The notes under the pieces are model-generated. The model had not been told where the DNA came from and ran no database searches. It saw only the letters and a program-made list of their open reading frames with translations. Below, piece by piece: positions 3,332 through 19,777 of a stretch of DNA of 64,000 nucleotides. The stretch is from Prevotella sp. (GTDB lineage Bacteria; Bacteroidota; Bacteroidia; Bacteroidales; Bacteroidaceae): NCBI GenBank assembly GCA_017554105.1, contig JAFZIY010000024.1:1-64000 (forward strand), read 5' to 3'. The position numbers were made by a program, and so were the translations under genes. Within the stretch, counting starts at the first letter, position 1. Each line of letters begins with the position of its first letter.

Positions 3332-3892
3332 ATGGAAATTATACTTAAAGAAGACATCATAGGATTAGGTTACAAGAACGACATCGTAACCGTTAAGAAC
3401 GGCTATGGCCGTAACTATCTTATCCCAACAGGAAAAGGCGTTATCGCAAGCGAGAGTGCTAAGAAGATTCTTGCAGAGAATTTGAAGCAGCAGGCTCACA
3501 AGCTCGCAGCTCAGAAGGCTGCAGCAGAAGAGAAGGCTGCTAAGTTCGAAGGCGTTGCACTCGAGATTGCCGCAAAGGTTTCTGCTACTGGTCAGCTCTA
3601 CGGTTCTGTAAATGCAGCCAAGGTTGCTGAGGCTCTGGCAGAAAAGGGCATCGAGGTAGATCGTAAGATCATCACCATGCGCGACATCAAGCACGTTGGC
3701 GAATACGAGGCTGTTGTTCACTTCCACAAGGAGGTTGAGGTTAAGGTTCCTGTAACTGTAGTTGCAGAGAATGAGCCAGTTGCTGCTCCTGCTGAGGTTG
3801 TAGAAGAGGCTCCTGTTGCTGTAGAGGCACCTGCTGAAGAGGAGGACTTTGAAGTTCCTACTGAAGAAGAGGATGCTCCAGCAGAGGCATAA
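3332..3892 (+). CDS. rplI: 50S ribosomal protein bL9 with an acidic C-terminal tail
   Basis: 186 residues, against roughly 150 for most bL9 proteins. The N-terminal domain (MEIILKEDIIGLGYKNDIV, then GYGRNYLIP) and the long connecting helix rich in Ala, Lys and Glu are canonical. From about residue 143 the protein adds some 40 residues of Pro, Ala, Val and Glu ending EEEDAPAEA, a strongly acidic low-complexity extension. It is last in the rpsF operon and is followed by a strong terminator. The tail may be a lineage feature; no function for it can be read here. Confidence 0.97.
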   Translation: MEIILKEDIIGLGYKNDIVTVKNGYGRNYLIPTGKGVIASESAKKILAENLKQQAHKLAAQKAAAEEKAAKFEGVALEIAAKVSATGQLYGSVNAAKVAEALAEKGIEVDRKIITMRDIKHVGEYEAVVHFHKEVEVKVPVTVVAENEPVAAPAEVVEEAPVAVEAPAEEEDFEVPTEEEDAPAEA

Positions 3893-3935
3893 TCAGAAGA
3901 ATATTTTCGCGCTGTAAAGCAGTTTTTAATAAGTG

Positions 3936-3972
3936 TCCCGACTATCAGTATCGATGGTCGGGATTCTTTTTT
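3936..3972 (+). terminator. Rho-independent terminator of rpsF-rpsR-rplI
   Basis: An 11-base-pair stem (TCCCGACTATC with GATGGTCGGGA, one G-U pair) around a six-base loop, followed directly by TTCTTTTTTG. Confidence 0.9.
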
Positions 3973-4071
3973 GTTATTTGCTTTGTCCATTTGGTTAAAG
4001 TGAGATGTGCCGAGATGTATGCAAGTTGTTCTTTGTTTGTAACATAACATGAAAAAAGTAGGTTTTACGCA

Positions 4072-4101
4072 TTGCCAGTTTCGTCATAAATACTATCTTT
4101 G
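4072..4101 (+). promoter_or_regulatory. Promoter of the secreted TIM-barrel gene
   Basis: TTG at 4072-4074 and the -7 box TATCTTTG at 4094-4101, separated by 19 bases, a standard Bacteroidetes arrangement. The start codon follows at 4150. Confidence 0.7.
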
Positions 4102-4149
4102 CAAACAGTATGAAATCACCTAAGTACCATCTTACATTTTACTAACTTT

Positions 4150-6024
4150 ATGAGAAAAATATTGTCTTTGGCAGCGTTCTTGTTTGCTGTCTCCTTGTCG
4201 TTGCAGGCAAAGAACTATCAGAATTTCAAAGTGTCAACCTATATCCGTGCGCAGGACGTGGCACGTATGGCTGATGACAGTTTCCTGGAGTCAACATGGC
4301 GAATCATAAGCGAACAGGTTGACATTGACAAGATTTATCTTGAAACACACCGCGATGCGTTCATTGTGGACGAGAAGACACTTCTGAAAGTGAAGAACTT
4401 CTTCCTGAAGCAAGGCCTGGAAGTAGGTGGTGGAATCACCTATACAATTTCTGAGCCCACCGATTTCGAGACATATAGTTATGCCACGCCAACTGACCGC
4501 GAAAAGGTAAGGGAGATAGCGGAATATACTGCGAAGCATTTCGATGATTTCATCTTGGATGACTTCTTCTTCATCGACATCAAGAACGATGCGGAGATAG
4601 CGGCAAAGGGTGACAAGAGTTGGACCGATTATCGTCTGCGTCTTATGTCGGATGCCGGCAAAGAACTTGTCGTGGAGCCTGCCAAGCGGGTGAATCCTAA
4701 GGTGAAGGTGATAATAAAATACCCTAACTGGTATGACCATTTCCACGGACTGGGCTTCAACCTTGAGGAAGAGCCGCTTTATTTTGATGGCCTTTGGACA
4801 GGAACGGAGACGCGTGACCCAGGTAGTGCGCAGCATCTGCAGAACTATCTCAGTTATAACATCATGCGTTATTTTGAGAATATAGCACCAGGAAAGAATG
4901 GTGGAGGATGGGTTGATGCAGGTGGAATACAGATGGGTATCGACCGTTATGCAGAGCAATTGCATCTTACCATGCTTTCCAAGTCGCGCGAGATAATCCT
5001 CTGGAACTATATGCAGCTTGCAGAAGTGAAGATAAATCAGGATATGCGACGTGAATGGCAGAGCGCAGGCGGTAATAGTTTCAACTATGATGCCATGATG
5101 TCACCATTCAAGAAAGGCAAGAAGACCATCGAGCCATCTACGCTTGCACGTATCGCAAGTGTCACATTGAAGCAGGACGATGAGCTCCTTGGTAAACTTG
5201 GCAATCCTGTGGGCATCGTCTCTTATAAGCCTTACCACTCGTCAGGTGAGGATTTCCTGCAGAACTATCTTGGTATGATTGGACTGCCGATGGATATGCA
5301 TCCGCGTTTCGTTGAGGGTAAGCAACAAATACTTCTTACTCAGCAGGCAGCCAAGGACAAGGATATCGTGGAGAAGATGAAGGCACAGTTGCGTCAGGGT
5401 AATGATGTCATAATAACCACAGGCTTACTCAAGGAGATTAAGGAACAACTGGCAGACATCTGTGAACTCTATTGTGGTGACTTGAAGGCTATCGTCAATG
5501 ACTTCGGTTATTATGGCAAGTCAGACCGCGAGTTCATTATTCCACAGGTTAAGTATTTCACTAACGACTCGTGGGAAGTGGTTAGTGCTGGTCGTCCTCT
5601 TAATGGCGGCGTATCGGGCTATCCCGTTCTTCTTCGCAACAAGTATTCCAAGGGAACGCTCTATGTGCTTACTATCCCTGATGACTTTGGCAATCTCTAT
5701 GACTATCCTGCAGGAGCACTGAACCAGATACGTAAGTTCTTCAGTCGTGACATGGGCTATTACATCGAGTGTAAGTCAAAGGTATCGCTGTTCCCATATG
5801 ACAACAAGACTTTCGTTGTAGAGAATTTCAACGACGAACCAGTTGATGTGAATATAGTATTCAATAGTAGTGTTTCAGGTATAAGGAATCTTGAAAACAA
5901 TACTCGTCAGCAGCCAGCTGAAGGTATAGTATATGGTAATAACCGTTGGTCACAATACAGAGAAGGGCAGACCGTGTTCAAAACCACACTGCCTGCCCAT
6001 TCGTATAAGGCATTCGGATATTAA
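4150..6024 (+). CDS. Secreted protein with glycosidase-like TIM barrel, function unknown
   Basis: 624 residues with a clear signal peptide (MRKILSLAAFLFAVSLSLQA). The N-terminal half reads like a glycoside-hydrolase barrel: acidic strand ends such as DDFILDDFFFIDI near residue 140, VKVIIKYPNWYDHF near 190, FDGLWTGTETRD near 220 and GGWVDAGGIQMG near 255. Residues of about 380-520 look like a GATase-type alpha/beta domain, followed by a beta-rich C-terminus. Barrel, GATase-like domain and beta domain together recall the layout of GH42-type beta-galactosidases, but I do not recognise the family and catalytic residues are not assigned. The gene is convergent with a CE15-like esterase, which suggests a role in plant polysaccharide use. 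It is probably periplasmic or surface-located. Confidence 0.75.
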   Translation: MRKILSLAAFLFAVSLSLQAKNYQNFKVSTYIRAQDVARMADDSFLESTWRIISEQVDIDKIYLETHRDAFIVDEKTLLKVKNFFLKQGLEVGGGITYTISEPTDFETYSYATPTDREKVREIAEYTAKHFDDFILDDFFFIDIKNDAEIAAKGDKSWTDYRLRLMSDAGKELVVEPAKRVNPKVKVIIKYPNWYDHFHGLGFNLEEEPLYFDGLWTGTETRDPGSAQHLQNYLSYNIMRYFENIAPGKNGGGWVDAGGIQMGIDRYAEQLHLTMLSKSREIILWNYMQLAEVKINQDMRREWQSAGGNSFNYDAMMSPFKKGKKTIEPSTLARIASVTLKQDDELLGKLGNPVGIVSYKPYHSSGEDFLQNYLGMIGLPMDMHPRFVEGKQQILLTQQAAKDKDIVEKMKAQLRQGNDVIITTGLLKEIKEQLADICELYCGDLKAIVNDFGYYGKSDREFIIPQVKYFTNDSWEVVSAGRPLNGGVSGYPVLLRNKYSKGTLYVLTIPDDFGNLYDYPAGALNQIRKFFSRDMGYYIECKSKVSLFPYDNKTFVVENFNDEPVDVNIVFNSSVSGIRNLENNTRQQPAEGIVYGNNRWSQYREGQTVFKTTLPAHSYKAFGY

Positions 6025-11635: not shown

Positions 11636-13501
11636 ATGAACGAAATAAAGTGTCCAAATTGCGGAAAAGTGTTTTCTGTTGATGAAGCAAGTTATGCTTC
11701 AGTCGTTAATCAGGTAAGAACGCAAGAGTTCGAGAAAGATGTGGAACGACGTGTTGAAGAAATAGAGAAGCAGCAGATACTTCAACGTCAGTCTGAAAAA
11801 CTGAAGGCAGAACAGTTGTTCCAGCAGCAGTTGAACGCCAAAGAACAAGAGGTGGAAAAACGTAACGCAGAAATAGCTAGGCTTGAAGAACACTTAAAAG
11901 GAGTAGAGGCTTCAAAAAATGCAGTAGCTCATGAAGCTGTTCAATCAGCGCAAATAGAATTTAATAAGATTTTAGCTGAAAAAGACGCACAGATTCTTAA
12001 GAAAGAACATGAAATATTATCGCTTAATGAACAATCGCAAGGGAAAGAAAGAGCTAAACAGTTAGAATATGAAAGAGAACTGGCAGTAAAGGAATCGCAA
12101 ATAGCTCGTTTAGAGGAACAGATAAAAGGTGCTGTGATTGAAAAGCAAGCAGAATTTGAAAAACAACTGGCATCAAAGGATGCTGAGATATTACGACTAA
12201 AAGGTGAAGTGTCTCATAGTCAAGGTCAGATAGAGGTGGCTGTACTGAAAGAGCAAAACAAGGCAAACCAGATAATTCAAATAAAAGAAGGAGAGATATC
12301 ATCGTGGAAAGAAAAACTAGAAATTGAGAAGAGCGATTCTATGCGTCGTGAACAAGATCTTCGCCAAGGTTATGAACGTCAGCTTAAGCAACAGCAGGAG
12401 CTTGTAGATTATTATAAAGACATGAAAATCCGCATGTCTACAAAAATGGTGGGAGAGACACTTGAAGCTCATTGTAATACTCTTTTCAATTCAACTATTC
12501 GTCCCATAATGCCTCAGGCATATTTTGAGAAAGATAATGACATATCTGGAGGCTCGAAGGGTGATTTCATCTTTCGTGATTACTATGGTAAGTTTGAGTA
12601 TATTTCCATTATGTTTGAAATGAAGAACGAGATGGACGAGACTGCTACAAAGCACCGAAACGAGGATTTCTTAAAGAAACTTGATGAGGACCGTAGAAAG
12701 AAAAACTGTGAATTTGCCGTGTTGGTGTCTATGTTGGAACCTGATAATGACCTTTATAATACAGGTATTGTGGACATGTGTCACCGTTACCCCAAGATGT
12801 ATGTTATACGTCCCCAGTTCTTCATACCTATTATTACACTTTTGGTTCAGACCTCAAAAAAGAGTATCATTTTACAGAAGCAACTATTACTTGCCCAAAG
12901 CCAATCAGTAGATGTTACTAATTTTGAATCGAAGCTTAATGATTTTAAGGAACGCTTCGCAAACAATTATCGCCTTGCAAGTGAGAAGTTTCAAAAGGCT
13001 ATAGAGGAAATTGACAAAACAATAGACCATTTGCAGAAAATAAAGGCAAACCTTATTGGCTCAGAGAATAATCTGCGTATAGCGAATAACAAGGCAGAGG
13101 AACTTACGATTAAGAGATTGACTTATAAGAATCCAACTATGAAAGCGAAGTTTGATGAAGCAAGAAAGAAATCTTCTGAGCCTGAGAGTGCAGAAGAAAT
13201 AATCGATGAGTTTCAACCGTCAATAATTGAAGATGCGGAAAATACAATTAGCAAAGAGAATAGAAAGAAGGATGAAAGCAATATCAAGCAAAAAAAGCAT
13301 TATACAATGATTGCTCGTGCTGCTAAAATTGGAGATAGAGTTATTAGATTGTCCGACAACCAGATAGGAACTGTAATCAAAATAGAGAAACTAATGGGTG
13401 ATATCGAAAGATTAATACTTGAGCTTGAAGATGGAAGAAGCGCTACTGTGTTTAACGATCGGAGTATGTATAAGGTGATAATTGTAGATGAGGATGAATA
13501 G
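11636..13501 (+). CDS. DUF2130 coiled-coil protein with extra C-terminal domain
   Basis: 621 residues. The N-terminus has a CPNCGKVF zinc-ribbon half, then a long charged coiled coil (about 25-260) rich in Gln, Glu and Lys, then the DUF2130 domain (about 265-500; landmarks STKMVGETLEAH and KGDFIFRDYYG, and KNPTMKAKFDEA near the usual family end). About 110 further residues follow: a charged linker, then a compact segment from 563 (AKIGDRVIRLSDNQIGTVIKIE, LELEDGRSATVF) that looks like a small SH3/KOW-type beta-barrel. Codon use is AT-richer than that of its neighbours, suggesting a separate origin. The role of DUF2130 is unknown; nuclease-like functions have been suggested. The gene lies just before a dead restriction-modification locus. 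Confidence 0.85.
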   Translation: MNEIKCPNCGKVFSVDEASYASVVNQVRTQEFEKDVERRVEEIEKQQILQRQSEKLKAEQLFQQQLNAKEQEVEKRNAEIARLEEHLKGVEASKNAVAHEAVQSAQIEFNKILAEKDAQILKKEHEILSLNEQSQGKERAKQLEYERELAVKESQIARLEEQIKGAVIEKQAEFEKQLASKDAEILRLKGEVSHSQGQIEVAVLKEQNKANQIIQIKEGEISSWKEKLEIEKSDSMRREQDLRQGYERQLKQQQELVDYYKDMKIRMSTKMVGETLEAHCNTLFNSTIRPIMPQAYFEKDNDISGGSKGDFIFRDYYGKFEYISIMFEMKNEMDETATKHRNEDFLKKLDEDRRKKNCEFAVLVSMLEPDNDLYNTGIVDMCHRYPKMYVIRPQFFIPIITLLVQTSKKSIILQKQLLLAQSQSVDVTNFESKLNDFKERFANNYRLASEKFQKAIEEIDKTIDHLQKIKANLIGSENNLRIANNKAEELTIKRLTYKNPTMKAKFDEARKKSSEPESAEEIIDEFQPSIIEDAENTISKENRKKDESNIKQKKHYTMIARAAKIGDRVIRLSDNQIGTVIKIEKLMGDIERLILELEDGRSATVFNDRSMYKVIIVDEDE

Positions 13502-14507: not shown

Positions 14508-15413
14508 ATGGAACTTAGACAACTTAAGTATTTTGTGCAACTGTCGAAGACTTTGAATTTCTCTACGGCAGCAAAGGACTTGTTCATCACGCAGAGCACG
14601 TTATCTCATCAGATATTGCAGTTGGAGAATGAACTGGGACAACCGTTGTTCCACCGCAACAGTCACGAGGTGATGCTTACAGAGGCGGGGCAGACTCTGC
14701 TTCCACTGGCGAAGCAGACTATCATTGACGCAGACAACTGTCTGCTGAAACTGGATGAACTGAAGAACCTGATGGGGGGCGAACTGAATATCGGTGTCAC
14801 CTTCTCTTTCGCATGTATCATGGCTGAGACGCTGACATCGTTCCTCAGACAATATCCTCATGTGAAGGTTAACGTGAGTCAATCGAATATGGCTGACCTG
14901 ATTAAGAGGCTTGAGAACCATGAGTTTGACTTTGTTTTGGCGTTCAAACCATTGGAAAACAATCCGCGTCTGGAGAGCAGGGTGCTGTTCAGCCATAAGT
15001 TGACGGCAGTGGTAAATGAACATCATGCCTTGGCTTCCAGGTCTTCTCTCACGTTGGAAGAACTGCAGCGGTATGACCTTGCATTGCCTCTGCGGGGCAC
15101 ACGGGCGCGCAATGTCTTTGAGCGCATAATTGCCGGTACAGGTTATGAGTATAAGGTGAAGGTTGAGATGAATTATGTATATCTGCTTTTCCGTCTGCTG
15201 CGCGAATCTAACTATGTCACCATACTGAGTGAGAGCACAGTGATGGGTGAGCAGGGATTGCGTGCCATACCTATCGTTGAGATGGATACGGAGGAAAACC
15301 GCATGTATGGCTGCATCCATTTGCTGCGCAACGTATACATGAAGAAGTCTGCACAGGAGTTCATAAGGATGCTCGACGAGAGCACATCGGTACTTCGCCG
15401 AGCAATACTTTAA
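14508..15413 (+). CDS. LysR-family transcriptional regulator
   Basis: 301 residues from the ATG directly behind the promoter. The N-terminal winged helix-turn-helix (MELRQLKYFVQLSKTLNFST, with TQSTLSHQILQLENELGQPLF as the recognition region) is followed by a periplasmic-binding-protein-like effector domain (about 90-290). Family members bind a small molecule and activate neighbouring genes. The nearest genes are the divergent 31-residue membrane protein and the convergent pdxT; neither identifies the ligand. The start encoded further upstream at 14418 would precede the promoter and is rejected. Confidence 0.92.
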   Translation: MELRQLKYFVQLSKTLNFSTAAKDLFITQSTLSHQILQLENELGQPLFHRNSHEVMLTEAGQTLLPLAKQTIIDADNCLLKLDELKNLMGGELNIGVTFSFACIMAETLTSFLRQYPHVKVNVSQSNMADLIKRLENHEFDFVLAFKPLENNPRLESRVLFSHKLTAVVNEHHALASRSSLTLEELQRYDLALPLRGTRARNVFERIIAGTGYEYKVKVEMNYVYLLFRLLRESNYVTILSESTVMGEQGLRAIPIVEMDTEENRMYGCIHLLRNVYMKKSAQEFIRMLDESTSVLRRAIL

Positions 15414-15419
15414 TTGGAA

Positions 15420-15983
15420 TCAGATAGAAGTTGTAGCCTTAATACGATTCAAGAAAAACTCGTGAATTCTTGTGTCATCGTCTAACTCTGGATGAAAAGC
15501 GGTGACAAGTTGGTTGTCTTGACGTGCGGCAACGATGCGTCCATCCACTCTGGCAAGAACTTTGCAACGTTCAGACAACACCTCTTTTATATATGGGGCA
15601 CGTATAAAGGTCATGGGGATGTCTTCTCCTATGCCTTCTACAGGTGCTTTGGCGTGGAAACTTCCTAACTGACGACCGTAGGCATTGCGTTCAGCCACAA
15701 TGTCCATAGTACCGAGATGCATTGAAGACAAAAGGATTAGTCCTGCACATGTGCCGAAGACAGGGAGTCCGTTGACAATGGCTTGACGTATGGGTTCAAA
15801 CAACCCGAGGTCGTGCAGCAGTTTACTTTGTGTCGTCGATTCCCCACCAGGGATTATCAGACCATCCTTTGGCTGCTGCCAGTCGCGCAGTTGTCGCACT
15901 TCAAAGGTCTCCGCACCTAAACGATGGAGCATTTGCTCGTGTTCGGCAAATGCTCCCTGTAATGCTAGTATTGCTATTCTCAT
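15420..15983 (-). CDS. pdxT: Pyridoxal 5'-phosphate synthase, glutaminase subunit
   Basis: 187 residues, class-I glutamine amidotransferase. Catalytic triad: C79 in GTCAG, H164 and E166 in FHPEL; the oxyanion loop GGEST is near 47-51. It hydrolyses glutamine and channels ammonia to PdxS in the DXP-independent vitamin B6 route. It overlaps pdxS by four bases and is the last gene of the fusion-pdxS-pdxT operon, ending six bases from the convergent LysR gene. Confidence 0.97.
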
Positions 15984-16858
15984 TTCCCTCGTTCAGCCAT
16001 TAGCAATTCTATTTCCTGTTCGTTGATGCCAACCATTGCCTCGCCCAAGTCCTCTGACAGTTCTGCCAGCATCTTCGCATCTTGATAGTTAGTTACTGCC
16101 TTTACAATGGCAGCAGCGCGTTTTGCCGGATTGCCACTCTTGAAGATGCCGCTACCAACAAATACCCCCTCTGCACCTAATTGCATCATAAGTGCCGCAT
16201 CAGCAGGAGTAGCCACACCACCGGCAGCGAAGTTCACTACAGGCAGTTTGCCATTCTCATGCACGTATTTCACAAGGTCATAGGGTGCTTGCAATTGCTT
16301 TGCTGCCTCATAGAGTTCGTCTTCACTCATCGACACAAGTCTGCGTATCTCGCTCTGCATCAGTCGCATGTGACTCACTGCCTGAACGACATCACCCGTG
16401 CCAGGCTCTCCTTTGGTGCGAATCATCGTTGCACCCTCCGCAATACGGCGCAAGGCCTCGCCTAAGTTCTTAGCACCGCAAACAAAAGGAACGTCGAACT
16501 TAGTCTTGTCGATATGATAGATATTGTCTGCTGGCGACAATACTTCGCTCTCATCAATATAGTCAATCTCGATAGCCTGCAGAATCTGTGCCTCTGCAAT
16601 ATGTCCGATGCGCACTTTCGCCATTACAGGTATGCTTACGGCTTCCTGAATGCCGCGAATCATCTTCGGGTCGCTCATCCTGCTCACTCCGCCTGCTGCG
16701 CGAATGTCGGCAGGAATACGCTCCAATGCCATCACGGCGCACGCACCTGCTGCCTCGGCTATCTTCGCCTGCTCAGGCGTTGTTACGTCCATAATCACTC
16801 CGCCCTTAAGCATTTGGGCGAGATTTCTGTTCAGTTCTTGTCTGTTCTGTGTACTCAT
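15980..16858 (-). CDS. pdxS: Pyridoxal 5'-phosphate synthase, lyase subunit
   Basis: 292 residues, (beta/alpha)8 barrel. Key residues: D24 in [12 protein letters not shown]81 in MAKVRIGH forming the Schiff base with ribose 5-phosphate, and the phosphate loops GEPGTGD and [11 protein letters not shown]. With ammonia from PdxT it makes PLP from ribose 5-phosphate and glyceraldehyde 3-phosphate. It overlaps both neighbours by four bases, so the three genes should be translated together. Confidence 0.98.
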
Positions 16859-17730
16859 TGTTTCCTAAATGTTGTGGGACTGCATCCCCGTTGTTTTTTA
16901 AAGAATTTCGTGAAATGTGCCTGAGATGAGAATCCCAGTGCATATGCTATCTCCTGAATTGTATTGTCTGTAAACTTGAGTTGCCGTTCTATCTCCTGCA
17001 TCAGGAAATCGTCGATGATGGTCTTTGGTGCCTTATCCGAAATCCGACGTGTCACTTGCGCCAGATAGCGGCTACTCACGTTCAGTTTGTCTGCATAGAA
17101 ATGCACATCCCTATTTGAGCGGTGGTATTCGCTAACGGCATTAAGGAACTCGTTATACAACTCGCTGCTACGTCCTTGCAGGTCGCTTGTCTTCGCCACT
17201 TGATTGTTGATATAACTGCGCGCAAGCGCTTGTGCCTGCTCAGGTGTTTGTCCCTGACTGAGATAAACAGCCACCGCACTGGCATAACGGTTGGCAAGTC
17301 CATGCATGGATTTCTCGTCCATCTCTATTACAAGAGTGCAGAGAGGCAACAGTTCGTTGGCAATGGCATCCACCAGTTTACGTTCCACCAAGGTCTCACC
17401 TTGTGACGACGACACCACAGCATCCAATATGACGTGACGTGGACGGTATTTCTGAATGGCAGTCACTACGGCATTCAACGTCTCGTTAGTGCGTATCAGT
17501 CCAATCTTCACCACGTCTGGCTGGAAATCGTTCATGATGGCCTCTATCTGTCCTTTCACTATCGAGGCAGGCAGGTCATAGAACTGCTGTATTCCCAGCG
17601 TCGTCTGCACGGTGATTGAGGTGATTGCAGACATGGCATAGCCTCCCAGTTCGGAGATTGTCTTTATGTCTGCCTGTACACCGGAACCACTTGTAGAGTC
17701 ACTACCTGTAATTGTGAGAATAGGTTTCAT
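16855..17730 (-). CDS. ThiD/PdxK-like kinase domain fused to AraC DNA-binding domain
   Basis: 291 residues from [10 protein letters not shown]; the frame is open further upstream, but that would include the promoter. Residues 1-180 match the HMP/pyridoxine kinase fold of ThiD ([19 protein letters not shown], then [20 protein letters not shown] and [10 protein letters not shown]). The ATP-side end normally found in ThiD, including the GTGC catalytic loop, is absent; the sequence runs from ALARSYINN straight into a linker. Residues 195-290 form an AraC/XylS helix-turn-helix pair ([35 protein letters not shown]). It heads an operon with pdxS and pdxT, overlapping pdxS by four bases. Inference: a non-catalytic sensor of a B6 vitamer or pyrimidine that regulates its own operon. 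An active kinase is not excluded. Confidence 0.88.
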
Positions 17731-17734
17731 GCTG

Positions 17735-17764
17735 CAAAGGAACATCTTTTTTCTGAAATGACAA
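17735..17764 (-). promoter_or_regulatory. Promoter of the B6 operon
   Basis: Minus strand TTG at 17764-17762, a 19-base spacer and TTCCTTTG at 17742-17735 (one mismatch to TAnnTTTG). The ATG lies five bases beyond, so the transcript is nearly leaderless. Confidence 0.55.
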
Positions 17765-17815
17765 AATAGGTGTTCCCATTTTGACAAAGAAAACCTCATT
17801 TTGTATAACATTTTG
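17759..17815. promoter_or_regulatory. Candidate AraC-type operator array upstream of the B6 operon
   Basis: TGACAAA occurs at 17759-17765 and 17782-17788 (23-base step), and CATTTTG at 17777-17783, 17797-17803 and 17809-17815 (20- and 12-base steps). Direct repeats about two helical turns apart, overlapping and upstream of the -33 region, are how AraC-family dimers usually bind. The binding protein is inferred to be the fusion regulator. Confidence 0.4.
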
Positions 17816-18685: not shown

Positions 18686-19777
18686 ATGAGGCGTGGAAAT
18701 CTTACGGACAACCAGATTATAAATGGTTTCAAGATGGGTAACTCCTACATTATTCAAAACTATTTCTATGAATATTGCAAGGCAGGGTATTATGTTTTCG
18801 ATAAGCATTACGACCTGAGTCATAAGGAGAATCTTGACTGCATATCGCTTACTCATCAGTATGCCATTTATCTGCTTGAGCATAATTGGCAACCTTTAGA
18901 GAATCGCTCGGAGGGTGTCAGCCTGCGCACGTGGGTCATCGGTGGCTTCCGCTATATCGTGCTTGATGCCCTGAAATGGTATCGAAAGGAATATGGCAGC
19001 ATATCATTCGAGGATTATCTTCAGTCGTTTGACATCACGAGTGACCTGCGCCTGCGGTTCCGACAGACCGTGATGGACATGTGCGACACGTGCCAAATGG
19101 ACCGAACCGACCGTGTTATAGCACTGATGATGTTTGAACGTGGCTTTAAATCCAAGGATATTGCAGTTCAACTTGGGATGTCTCCATCGGCAGTAAGTCA
19201 GCGCTATAAGTTGCTAAAGGAAAAGACTATCATACCTTATTTCAGACAACATTTCGATATGGAACTGGACATGCCTGAGGTAATTGACAAGGAAATGGTT
19301 GTTGATAAAATGTCATCTATGGCAAAGGAAAGCATCTCTCGGCAAATATCGGAGTCTTTCGAAGATTCTATGCCTATTACATATGAAAACAGATATAAAG
19401 AAATGAAAAAGAAAAGAGTTACTCCTGAGTTTATCACAAGTCTTGCTCCCAACGAGATATTCGTATTTGGCAGCAACCTTAGAGGAATGCATGGTGGCGG
19501 TGCTGCTTATGTTGCGGTCCGCAAGTTCGGTGCTGTTATGGGGCAGGGCGTCGGCTTGCAGGGACAGAGTTATGCCATACCAACCATGCAGGGTGGTGTG
19601 GAGACCATACGTCCTTATGTTGACGACTTTATTGACTTTGCACGTAAAAACATCAATCTTACGTTCCTTGTGACTCGCATTGGCTGTGGTATTGCAGGTT
19701 TCCGTGACGAGGAGATTGCGCCATTGTTCGCTGCTGCCCATGATTTAGACAATGTTGTGCTTCCGGAAGGTTGGTGA
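18686..19777 (+). CDS. Sigma-70-like domain fused to A1S_2505/macro-like domain
   Basis: 363 residues from the ATG at 18686; the frame is open slightly further upstream. Residues 1-190 look like a diverged sigma-70 family protein: an alpha-helical region-2-like block with SLRTWVIGGFRYIVLDALKW near 80-98, then a region-4-like helix-turn-helix, FKSKDIAVQLGMSPSAVSQR near 154-173. After a linker, residues 247-363 match the small phage-type A1S_2505 domain related to macro domains: EIFVFGSNLRGMHGGGAAYV, then GQGVGLQGQSYAIPT, VTRIGCGIAG and NVVLPEGW. The second domain is expected to bind ADP-ribose or a related nucleotide. The combination suggests a regulator controlled by, or acting on, such a ligand. 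It is divergent from the VWA gene. Confidence 0.8.
   Translation: MRRGNLTDNQIINGFKMGNSYIIQNYFYEYCKAGYYVFDKHYDLSHKENLDCISLTHQYAIYLLEHNWQPLENRSEGVSLRTWVIGGFRYIVLDALKWYRKEYGSISFEDYLQSFDITSDLRLRFRQTVMDMCDTCQMDRTDRVIALMMFERGFKSKDIAVQLGMSPSAVSQRYKLLKEKTIIPYFRQHFDMELDMPEVIDKEMVVDKMSSMAKESISRQISESFEDSMPITYENRYKEMKKKRVTPEFITSLAPNEIFVFGSNLRGMHGGGAAYVAVRKFGAVMGQGVGLQGQSYAIPTMQGGVETIRPYVDDFIDFARKNINLTFLVTRIGCGIAGFRDEEIAPLFAAAHDLDNVVLPEGW

Follow-up and report, generated by a model that had tools for sequence, protein, structure and literature searches.

Our findings suggest that a protein of Prevotella sp., in which a decayed ThiD-type kinase domain is joined to an AraC-type DNA-binding domain, is probably a dedicated regulator of PLP synthesis, most likely an activator, that senses a B6 vitamer. 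The gene lies in a stretch of 64,000 nucleotides (assembly GCA_017554105.1, contig JAFZIY010000024.1, positions 1 to 64,000, forward strand), referred to here as the window. Three lines of evidence were obtained: the catalytic residues of the kinase are lost in all fusions compared, the gene accompanies the genes of PLP synthesis, and a predicted operator stands at a nearly constant distance from the promoters of these genes.

The fusion gene, its operon and its promoter

The features of the locus are the following:

16855..17730, minus strand: ThiD-AraC fusion gene, 291 amino acids plus stop, conserved in relatives
15980..16858, minus strand: pdxS, PLP synthase subunit, above its NCBIfam cut-off, with an ATGA overlap with the fusion stop
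15420..15983, minus strand: pdxT, PLP synthase glutaminase subunit, above its NCBIfam cut-off, with an ATGA overlap with pdxS
17326..17730, minus strand: N-terminal substrate-binding half of the ThiD kinase domain, residues 1-135, Gln42 kept
17179..17325, minus strand: remnant of the ThiD C-terminal lobe with the mutated loop HGLAN, residues 136-184
16858..17097, minus strand: AraC-type DNA-binding domain, residues 212-291 (PF12833, PF00165)
17772..17808, minus strand: predicted operator TTATACAAAATGAGGTTTTCTTTGTCAAAATGGGAAC, 37 bp, two half-sites with a 21-bp period
17762..17765, minus strand: possible -33 element TTTG of the Bacteroidota type
17735..17742, minus strand: -7 element TTCCTTTG, 29 nt after the operator end and 4 nt before the ATG

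The preliminary description had placed the fusion at the head of a vitamin B6 operon with overlapping genes, and this is the arrangement that we found, since PdxS and PdxT are encoded next and both the fusion/pdxS and the pdxS/pdxT junctions are 4-nt ATGA overlaps. A mechanical ORF caller put the start of the fusion 27 codons earlier, at 17811; the conserved start, 17730, is preferred because the intervening stretch holds the promoter and the operator. The TTTG of this stretch may correspond to the Bacteroidota-type -33 consensus. Because the -7 box comes so shortly before the ATG, the operon may be transcribed without a leader or with almost none, and a -7 box just before the ATG was also seen in a few close relatives of the window. 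Upstream of the fusion, a conserved block, TTgtaCAAAntGAnGTTTtctTTGTCAaaAtggGAAC, is shared by the window and 16 close relatives. The 32-bp core pattern of the operator has a single match in the window genome at up to 3 mismatches, and its reversed control has none there at the same tolerance; a single-copy operator fits the one-gene feedback switch proposed in the preliminary description.

Other genes of the window may be mentioned here. A LysR gene (14508-15413) converges on pdxT, and its protein was matched in 4 of 109 loci, whose flanks are often short. The gene at 18686-19777 (plus strand) encodes a protein whose middle weakly resembles sigma-70 region 4, below the cut-off, and whose C-terminal part has no Pfam match (FGSNLRGMHGGGAAYVAVRKFG). 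The gene at 11636-13501 (plus strand) encodes a DUF2130 protein (E=2.4e-85, residues 242-497) whose long N-terminal part is coiled-coil-like by eye and whose C-terminus is extended by about 120 residues.

The reading of the protein as a fusion of a ThiD-type kinase with an AraC domain was borne out by profile searches. Phos_pyr_kin (PF08543) covers residues 11-134 (E=2.4e-43 for the protein; 148.7 bits against a cut-off of 27), HTH_18 (PF12833) covers residues 212-291 (E=6.5e-21; 74.9 bits against 33.6), PF00165 reaches 37 bits against 26.6, and both domains are carried by 36 of the 36 members of an alignment of the window protein with 35 homologues (A1). An assembly error or a chance ORF was rejected as an explanation, given these 36 members and the presence of the fusion in 33 of 201 genomes of the family. 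The N-terminal domain had been assigned to the ThiD/PdxK fold; its membership of the ThiD family (PF08543/TIGR00097) holds, and the PdxK/PdxY branch has to be dropped. Its closest enzymes are HMP kinases, although the model of ThiD as HMP-P kinase, TIGR00097, is not reached (137.1 bits against a cut-off of 204.95).

The kinase had further been described as stopping before the GTGC loop, and on this point the description needs correction. When the protein was aligned to solved ThiD structures, residues 3-134 (about 135) matched PDB entry 4jjp up to its residue 141, and residues 136-184 matched residues 205-253 of the same entry in a weak second stretch, which was also seen with Pfam. Therefore, about 65-70 residues are missing inside the kinase domain, where the middle segment measures only 7 amino acids, and the catalytic loop is kept in the mutated form HGLAN in place of HGTGC. 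Gln42 is, we assume, the equivalent of Gln44 of Salmonella ThiD, a substrate-side residue. The AlphaFold model of the protein has a mean pLDDT of 89.7 and a pTM of 0.65, and the latter value makes the modelled arrangement and packing of the domains uncertain.

Decay of the kinase domain

In ThiD enzymes, the Cys of the GTGC loop has a catalytic role and the middle segment, with its NxxE motif, binds ATP and Mg. These positions were counted in an alignment of 95 distinct fusions (98 rows minus the repeats L110, L111 and L118) and 31 stand-alone ThiD proteins; the stand-alone loci L135 and L137, from which no protein was obtained, are not among the 31. The catalytic Cys of HGTGC occurs in 0 of the 95 fusions, as against 31 of 31 stand-alone proteins. 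The middle segment, of 65-74 amino acids in stand-alone ThiD, is 67-74 amino acids long in 24 fusions and is shortened to 6-46 in the other 71 (6-13 in 39 fusions, 24-46 in 32). Even among the 24 fusions that retain the segment, not one has the NxxE[AV] motif, which all 31 stand-alone proteins possess. A looser N..E pattern occurs in 4 of these 24 full-length fusions and is, by eye, out of register in at least three. It is thus well supported by the alignment that the kinase would be catalytically dead in every fusion examined, and an active kinase as N-terminal domain was rejected on the Cys and NxxE[AV] counts. A protein that remained an active HMP or pyridoxal kinase while also binding DNA, that is, a trigger enzyme, would agree with the PF08543 match far over the cut-off; with the Cys and the motif missing throughout and the segment shortened in the remaining 71 fusions, we consider it very improbable.

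The substrate side of the domain has been kept. Gln42 is present in 94 of the 95 distinct fusions, including that of the window, and G9, S10, D11, G17, D21, Q42, K75 and G77 are each identical in at least 94. The retention of the substrate half together with the loss of the ATP half suggests that a vitamer may be bound and not phosphorylated. It could be argued that the kinase remnant binds no small molecule at all and that regulation comes from dimerisation or from contact with PdxS, PdxT, a B6 kinase or another partner, a possibility with which the shortened ATP-lobe segment of 71 of the 95 fusions would be compatible, as would the dimeric state of ThiD-fold enzymes. However, the near-identity of eight substrate-side positions is beyond what a mere dimer interface needs, and this explanation is unlikely.

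A quick maximum-likelihood tree was built from 79 fusions and 29 stand-alone proteins (108 of 129 rows, near-copies having been dropped). All fusions fall on one side of a single branch with an SH-aLRT support of 99, and 44 of the 105 inner branches of this tree have support under 80. The fewest changes between full and shortened middle segments on the tree number four, a count to be read with the many weak inner branches in mind.

Association with pdxS and pdxJ and distribution of the operator

The distribution of the fusion was examined in samples of 201 genomes of the family, 393 of the order and 395 of the phylum, and homologues were scanned in genome contigs for the best 80 of 194 loci. 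Within the family the fusion was seen in 33 of the 201 genomes, that of the window included; one family search at a strict E-value missed the fusions of G113 and G038, both of which appear in the other. Nine genomes of the order besides that of the window have it (E<=1e-40, 393 genomes), and outside the order none was found among the 395 phylum genomes at E<=1e-65, a threshold that also hides split matches.

The preliminary description had asked how far the order of the fusion and pdxST is conserved. No family genome of the sample was seen to have the fusion but not PdxS, and the genes may be co-directional, divergent or converging. PdxS is encoded in 40 of the 201 genomes, among which are all 33 with the fusion, and no fusion was found in the 161 PdxS-less genomes among the matches listed; seven genomes have PdxS and no fusion (G013, G025, G051, G140, G154, G168 and G196). 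The 33 genomes hold 34 fusion genes, every one at about 6 kb or less from pdxS; most are upstream of it on the same strand, two are divergent from it (G060, G152) and two converge on it from 2.6 kb (G169, G183). Divergent order also occurs outside the family, in L113, L114 and L115, and converging pairs among the named loci are L068 and L075. In one genome, G197, there are two pdxS copies, on contigs C27 and C50, each with its own fusion gene. Another, G218, has one fusion beside pdxS and a second, stand-alone shortened one of 304 amino acids (L188, G218:C23:109500-117500, at 3773-4687, minus strand), with an 11.6-bit operator site 82 nt upstream of its start.

Seven of the nine order genomes have PdxS beside the fusion, and in the remaining two, G499 and G561, PdxS is absent and PdxJ is present. 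G591 and G593 duplicate G499 and G561, with identical coordinates, so that these PdxS-less cases amount to two species; in both, a gene resembling that of L-aspartate oxidase (nadB by eye) is located upstream of the fusion (L026/L110, L030/L111). PdxJ was found in 0 of 33 tested genomes with PdxS and in 8 of 8 tested genomes that have neither PdxS nor the fusion.

The operator was searched for with a weight matrix built from 16 of the conserved sites of the window and its close relatives and applied to the remaining loci, distinct regions being counted once because L113/L145 and L050/L109 repeat the same sites. Predicted operators of at least 13 bits were found in 55 distinct held-out regions, all upstream of the fusion or of pdxS, and beyond 450 bp upstream of these genes only 1 of 172 loci reached this score (L054 with 18.1 bits, not counted among the 55). 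Where it stands before the fusion, the site lies 86-142 nt upstream of the start (229 in L058), and its upstream half-site is degenerate in most loci. In 13 loci the operator stands before pdxS and not before the fusion, for which reason an operator tied only to the fusion gene was rejected. In L028, L038, L039, L044, L046, L097, L098 and L101, pdxS follows the fusion on the same strand and has its own site; in L170 the site is upstream of pdxS and the fusion is 4.5 kb away; and in L146, L147, L149 and L150 the site is at pdxS, with the fusion on another contig and none within 1.5 kb upstream of pdxS. At the corresponding fusion loci, L019-L021 and L029, no operator was found.

In the two PdxS-less species the operator is kept upstream of the fusion, and pdxJ has a site as well, 88-90 nt before its ATG, matching 21 of 26 half-site positions in one species and 26 of 26 in the other. 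The better of the two (L185, 26/26) has the half-site TTGTCAnnnTGGGAAC with a 21-bp period. The weight matrix gives these sites only 6.0 and -0.9, and what stands out is a tandem of the promoter-proximal half-site. Control pdxJ upstream regions of fusion-less genomes reach at most 15 half-site positions in 8 of 8 cases, and 3000 random pieces reach at most 20, an upper tail that is inflated because the pieces include some with real operators. In fusion-less genomes the operator was absent at pdxS in 7 of 7 loci and, for pdxS or pdxJ, in 15 of the 15 genomes examined. Taken across relatives, it is well supported by these comparisons that the predicted operator tracks a PLP-synthesis gene, be it in the fusion-pdxST operon, at a separate pdxS or at pdxJ.

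The spacing between operator and promoter is also conserved. The -7 box (T[AT]NNTTTG) follows the end of the operator at a distance of 28 or 29 nt in 50 of the 55 distinct regions, with a background rate of the box of about 0.001 per position. Such near-constant spacing, with an operator that lies ahead of the -33 region, is suggestive of activation. The protein might instead repress pdxST when bound to B6, rather than activate it when free; repressors are common in autoregulated operons and AraC members can act either way, but the operator is not over the start site and a promoter-overlapping repressor would need no such strict spacing, which makes repression a possible though not a likely mode.

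Some lineages are poor in recognizable operators. In G183 and G169, pdxS is preceded at 103-116 nt by weaker tandem sites, and L140, L168 and L169 have weak sites only. The operator was weak or not found in a deep branch with full-length middle segments (L060, L072, L075, L077, L114-L117), in G166 (L171) and G180 (L172), and in a Prevotella clade comprising disiens, falsenii, corporis, aurantiaca and brunnea. In this clade, fusion and pdxS are separated by about 12 kb in disiens and about 145 kb in falsenii, on what is one contig to judge by its length; they are on different contigs in corporis and aurantiaca, and in brunnea the fusion converges with pdxST. In these lineages the operator sequence may have drifted, or control may differ.

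Possible mechanism and relation to known regulators

We hypothesize that the AraC domain binds the tandem-repeat operator abutting the promoter of its own operon, or of a separate pdxS or pdxJ, and that the bound regulator most likely activates transcription through contact with RNA polymerase. The N-terminal domain, having lost the ATP/Mg lobe and the catalytic Cys and kept half of the substrate pocket, would most likely bind a B6 vitamer (pyridoxal, pyridoxine or PLP), and sufficiency of B6 would be reported as lowered activation. The identity of the targets, pdxST or pdxJ, is what suggests a B6 vitamer as the ligand. The pocket chemistry alone favours no B6 ligand, because PL-specific ThiD2 kinases have a Met at the substrate-side position where the fusion has the HMP-type Gln42. 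A B6 salvage kinase is encoded in the window genome above its cut-off (NF005491, 250.6 against 231).

The same regulator, with the same targets, could respond to the thiamine precursor HMP or to HMP-phosphate and so couple B1 and B6 synthesis. The ThiD-typical Gln in 94 of 95 fusions and the HMP kinases as nearest enzymes would be in line with this, and salvage of external HMP is possible. Nevertheless, neither ThiC nor an authentic ThiD above the cut-off was found in the window genome, and ThiC is absent in 17 of 32 other fusion genomes. These absences argue against HMP as a general ligand and led us to reject it as the obvious one; moreover, only PLP-synthesis genes were found as targets, and we therefore regard this coupling as quite unlikely.

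The idea that an enzyme domain has become a sensor over its own PLP operon finds support in its outline, as catalytic residues are lost, the substrate side is kept and the predicted operator follows pdxS or pdxJ. A more detailed history may or may not prove right, and we give it about equal weight on either side: ThiD would have been fused once to AraC, catalysis would have been lost in all sampled lineages and the nucleotide lobe then trimmed, probably repeatedly, down to a minimal half-kinase that reads PLP or pyridoxal. If that reading is true, a regulator that serves either PLP pathway senses the product and not the route.

Enzyme-derived sensors of this kind have precedents. Archaeal ThiR is a helix-turn-helix fused to ThiN, so that an enzyme domain of a vitamin pathway is reused as the sensor of a regulator, although with another enzyme, another DNA-binding domain and thiamine rather than B6. 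The usual sensor of AraC/XylS activators is a cupin-like domain; the fusion has a decayed kinase in its place and shares with them the C-terminal AraC helix-turn-helix and the direct half-sites, with their 21-bp period, just upstream of the -33/-35 region. With the ThiD and ThiD2/PdxK kinases (COG0351) it shares the family membership of its N-terminal half and the substrate-side residues, but it lacks the catalytic Cys and NxxE, has the ATP lobe partly deleted in most cases, and carries an added DNA-binding domain. Comparable in role is the MocR-type PdxR, also a controller of PLP synthesis with an enzyme-derived sensor domain, although its parts are unrelated, GntR plus an aminotransferase fold as against an N-terminal dead ThiD plus a C-terminal AraC; in the window protein, neither a GntR nor an aminotransferase domain came up with Pfam or among the 25 of 29 NCBIfam families listed. 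PLP is described as an anti-activator of the PdxR of Bacillus clausii in its action on pdxST (PMC11619246; PMC5320631), and MocR regulators are reported for three Bacteroidetes lineages (PMC5320631). A genomic survey of the PLP pathway states that regulators are outside its scope, and a term search of its main text showed neither 'AraC' nor 'fusion' (PMC9997740). Among the matches listed in open full-text literature, which leaves out most subscription papers, no description of a ThiD-AraC regulator was found, nor did the literature searched yield a published B6-responsive regulator of Prevotella and relatives. We class the fusion as a regulator of the AraC family whose sensor is of a new kind, and neither as a ThiD kinase nor as a MocR protein. 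The best NCBIfam matches are kinase models below their cut-offs, and so a loose annotation may wrongly assign ThiD activity to these proteins.

These results provide a concrete candidate regulator, together with its predicted operator and target, for the synthesis of PLP in bacteria of the gut, mouth and rumen. The succession of full-length, partly deleted and half-kinase forms among the fusions would constitute a graded natural series for the change from enzyme to sensor.
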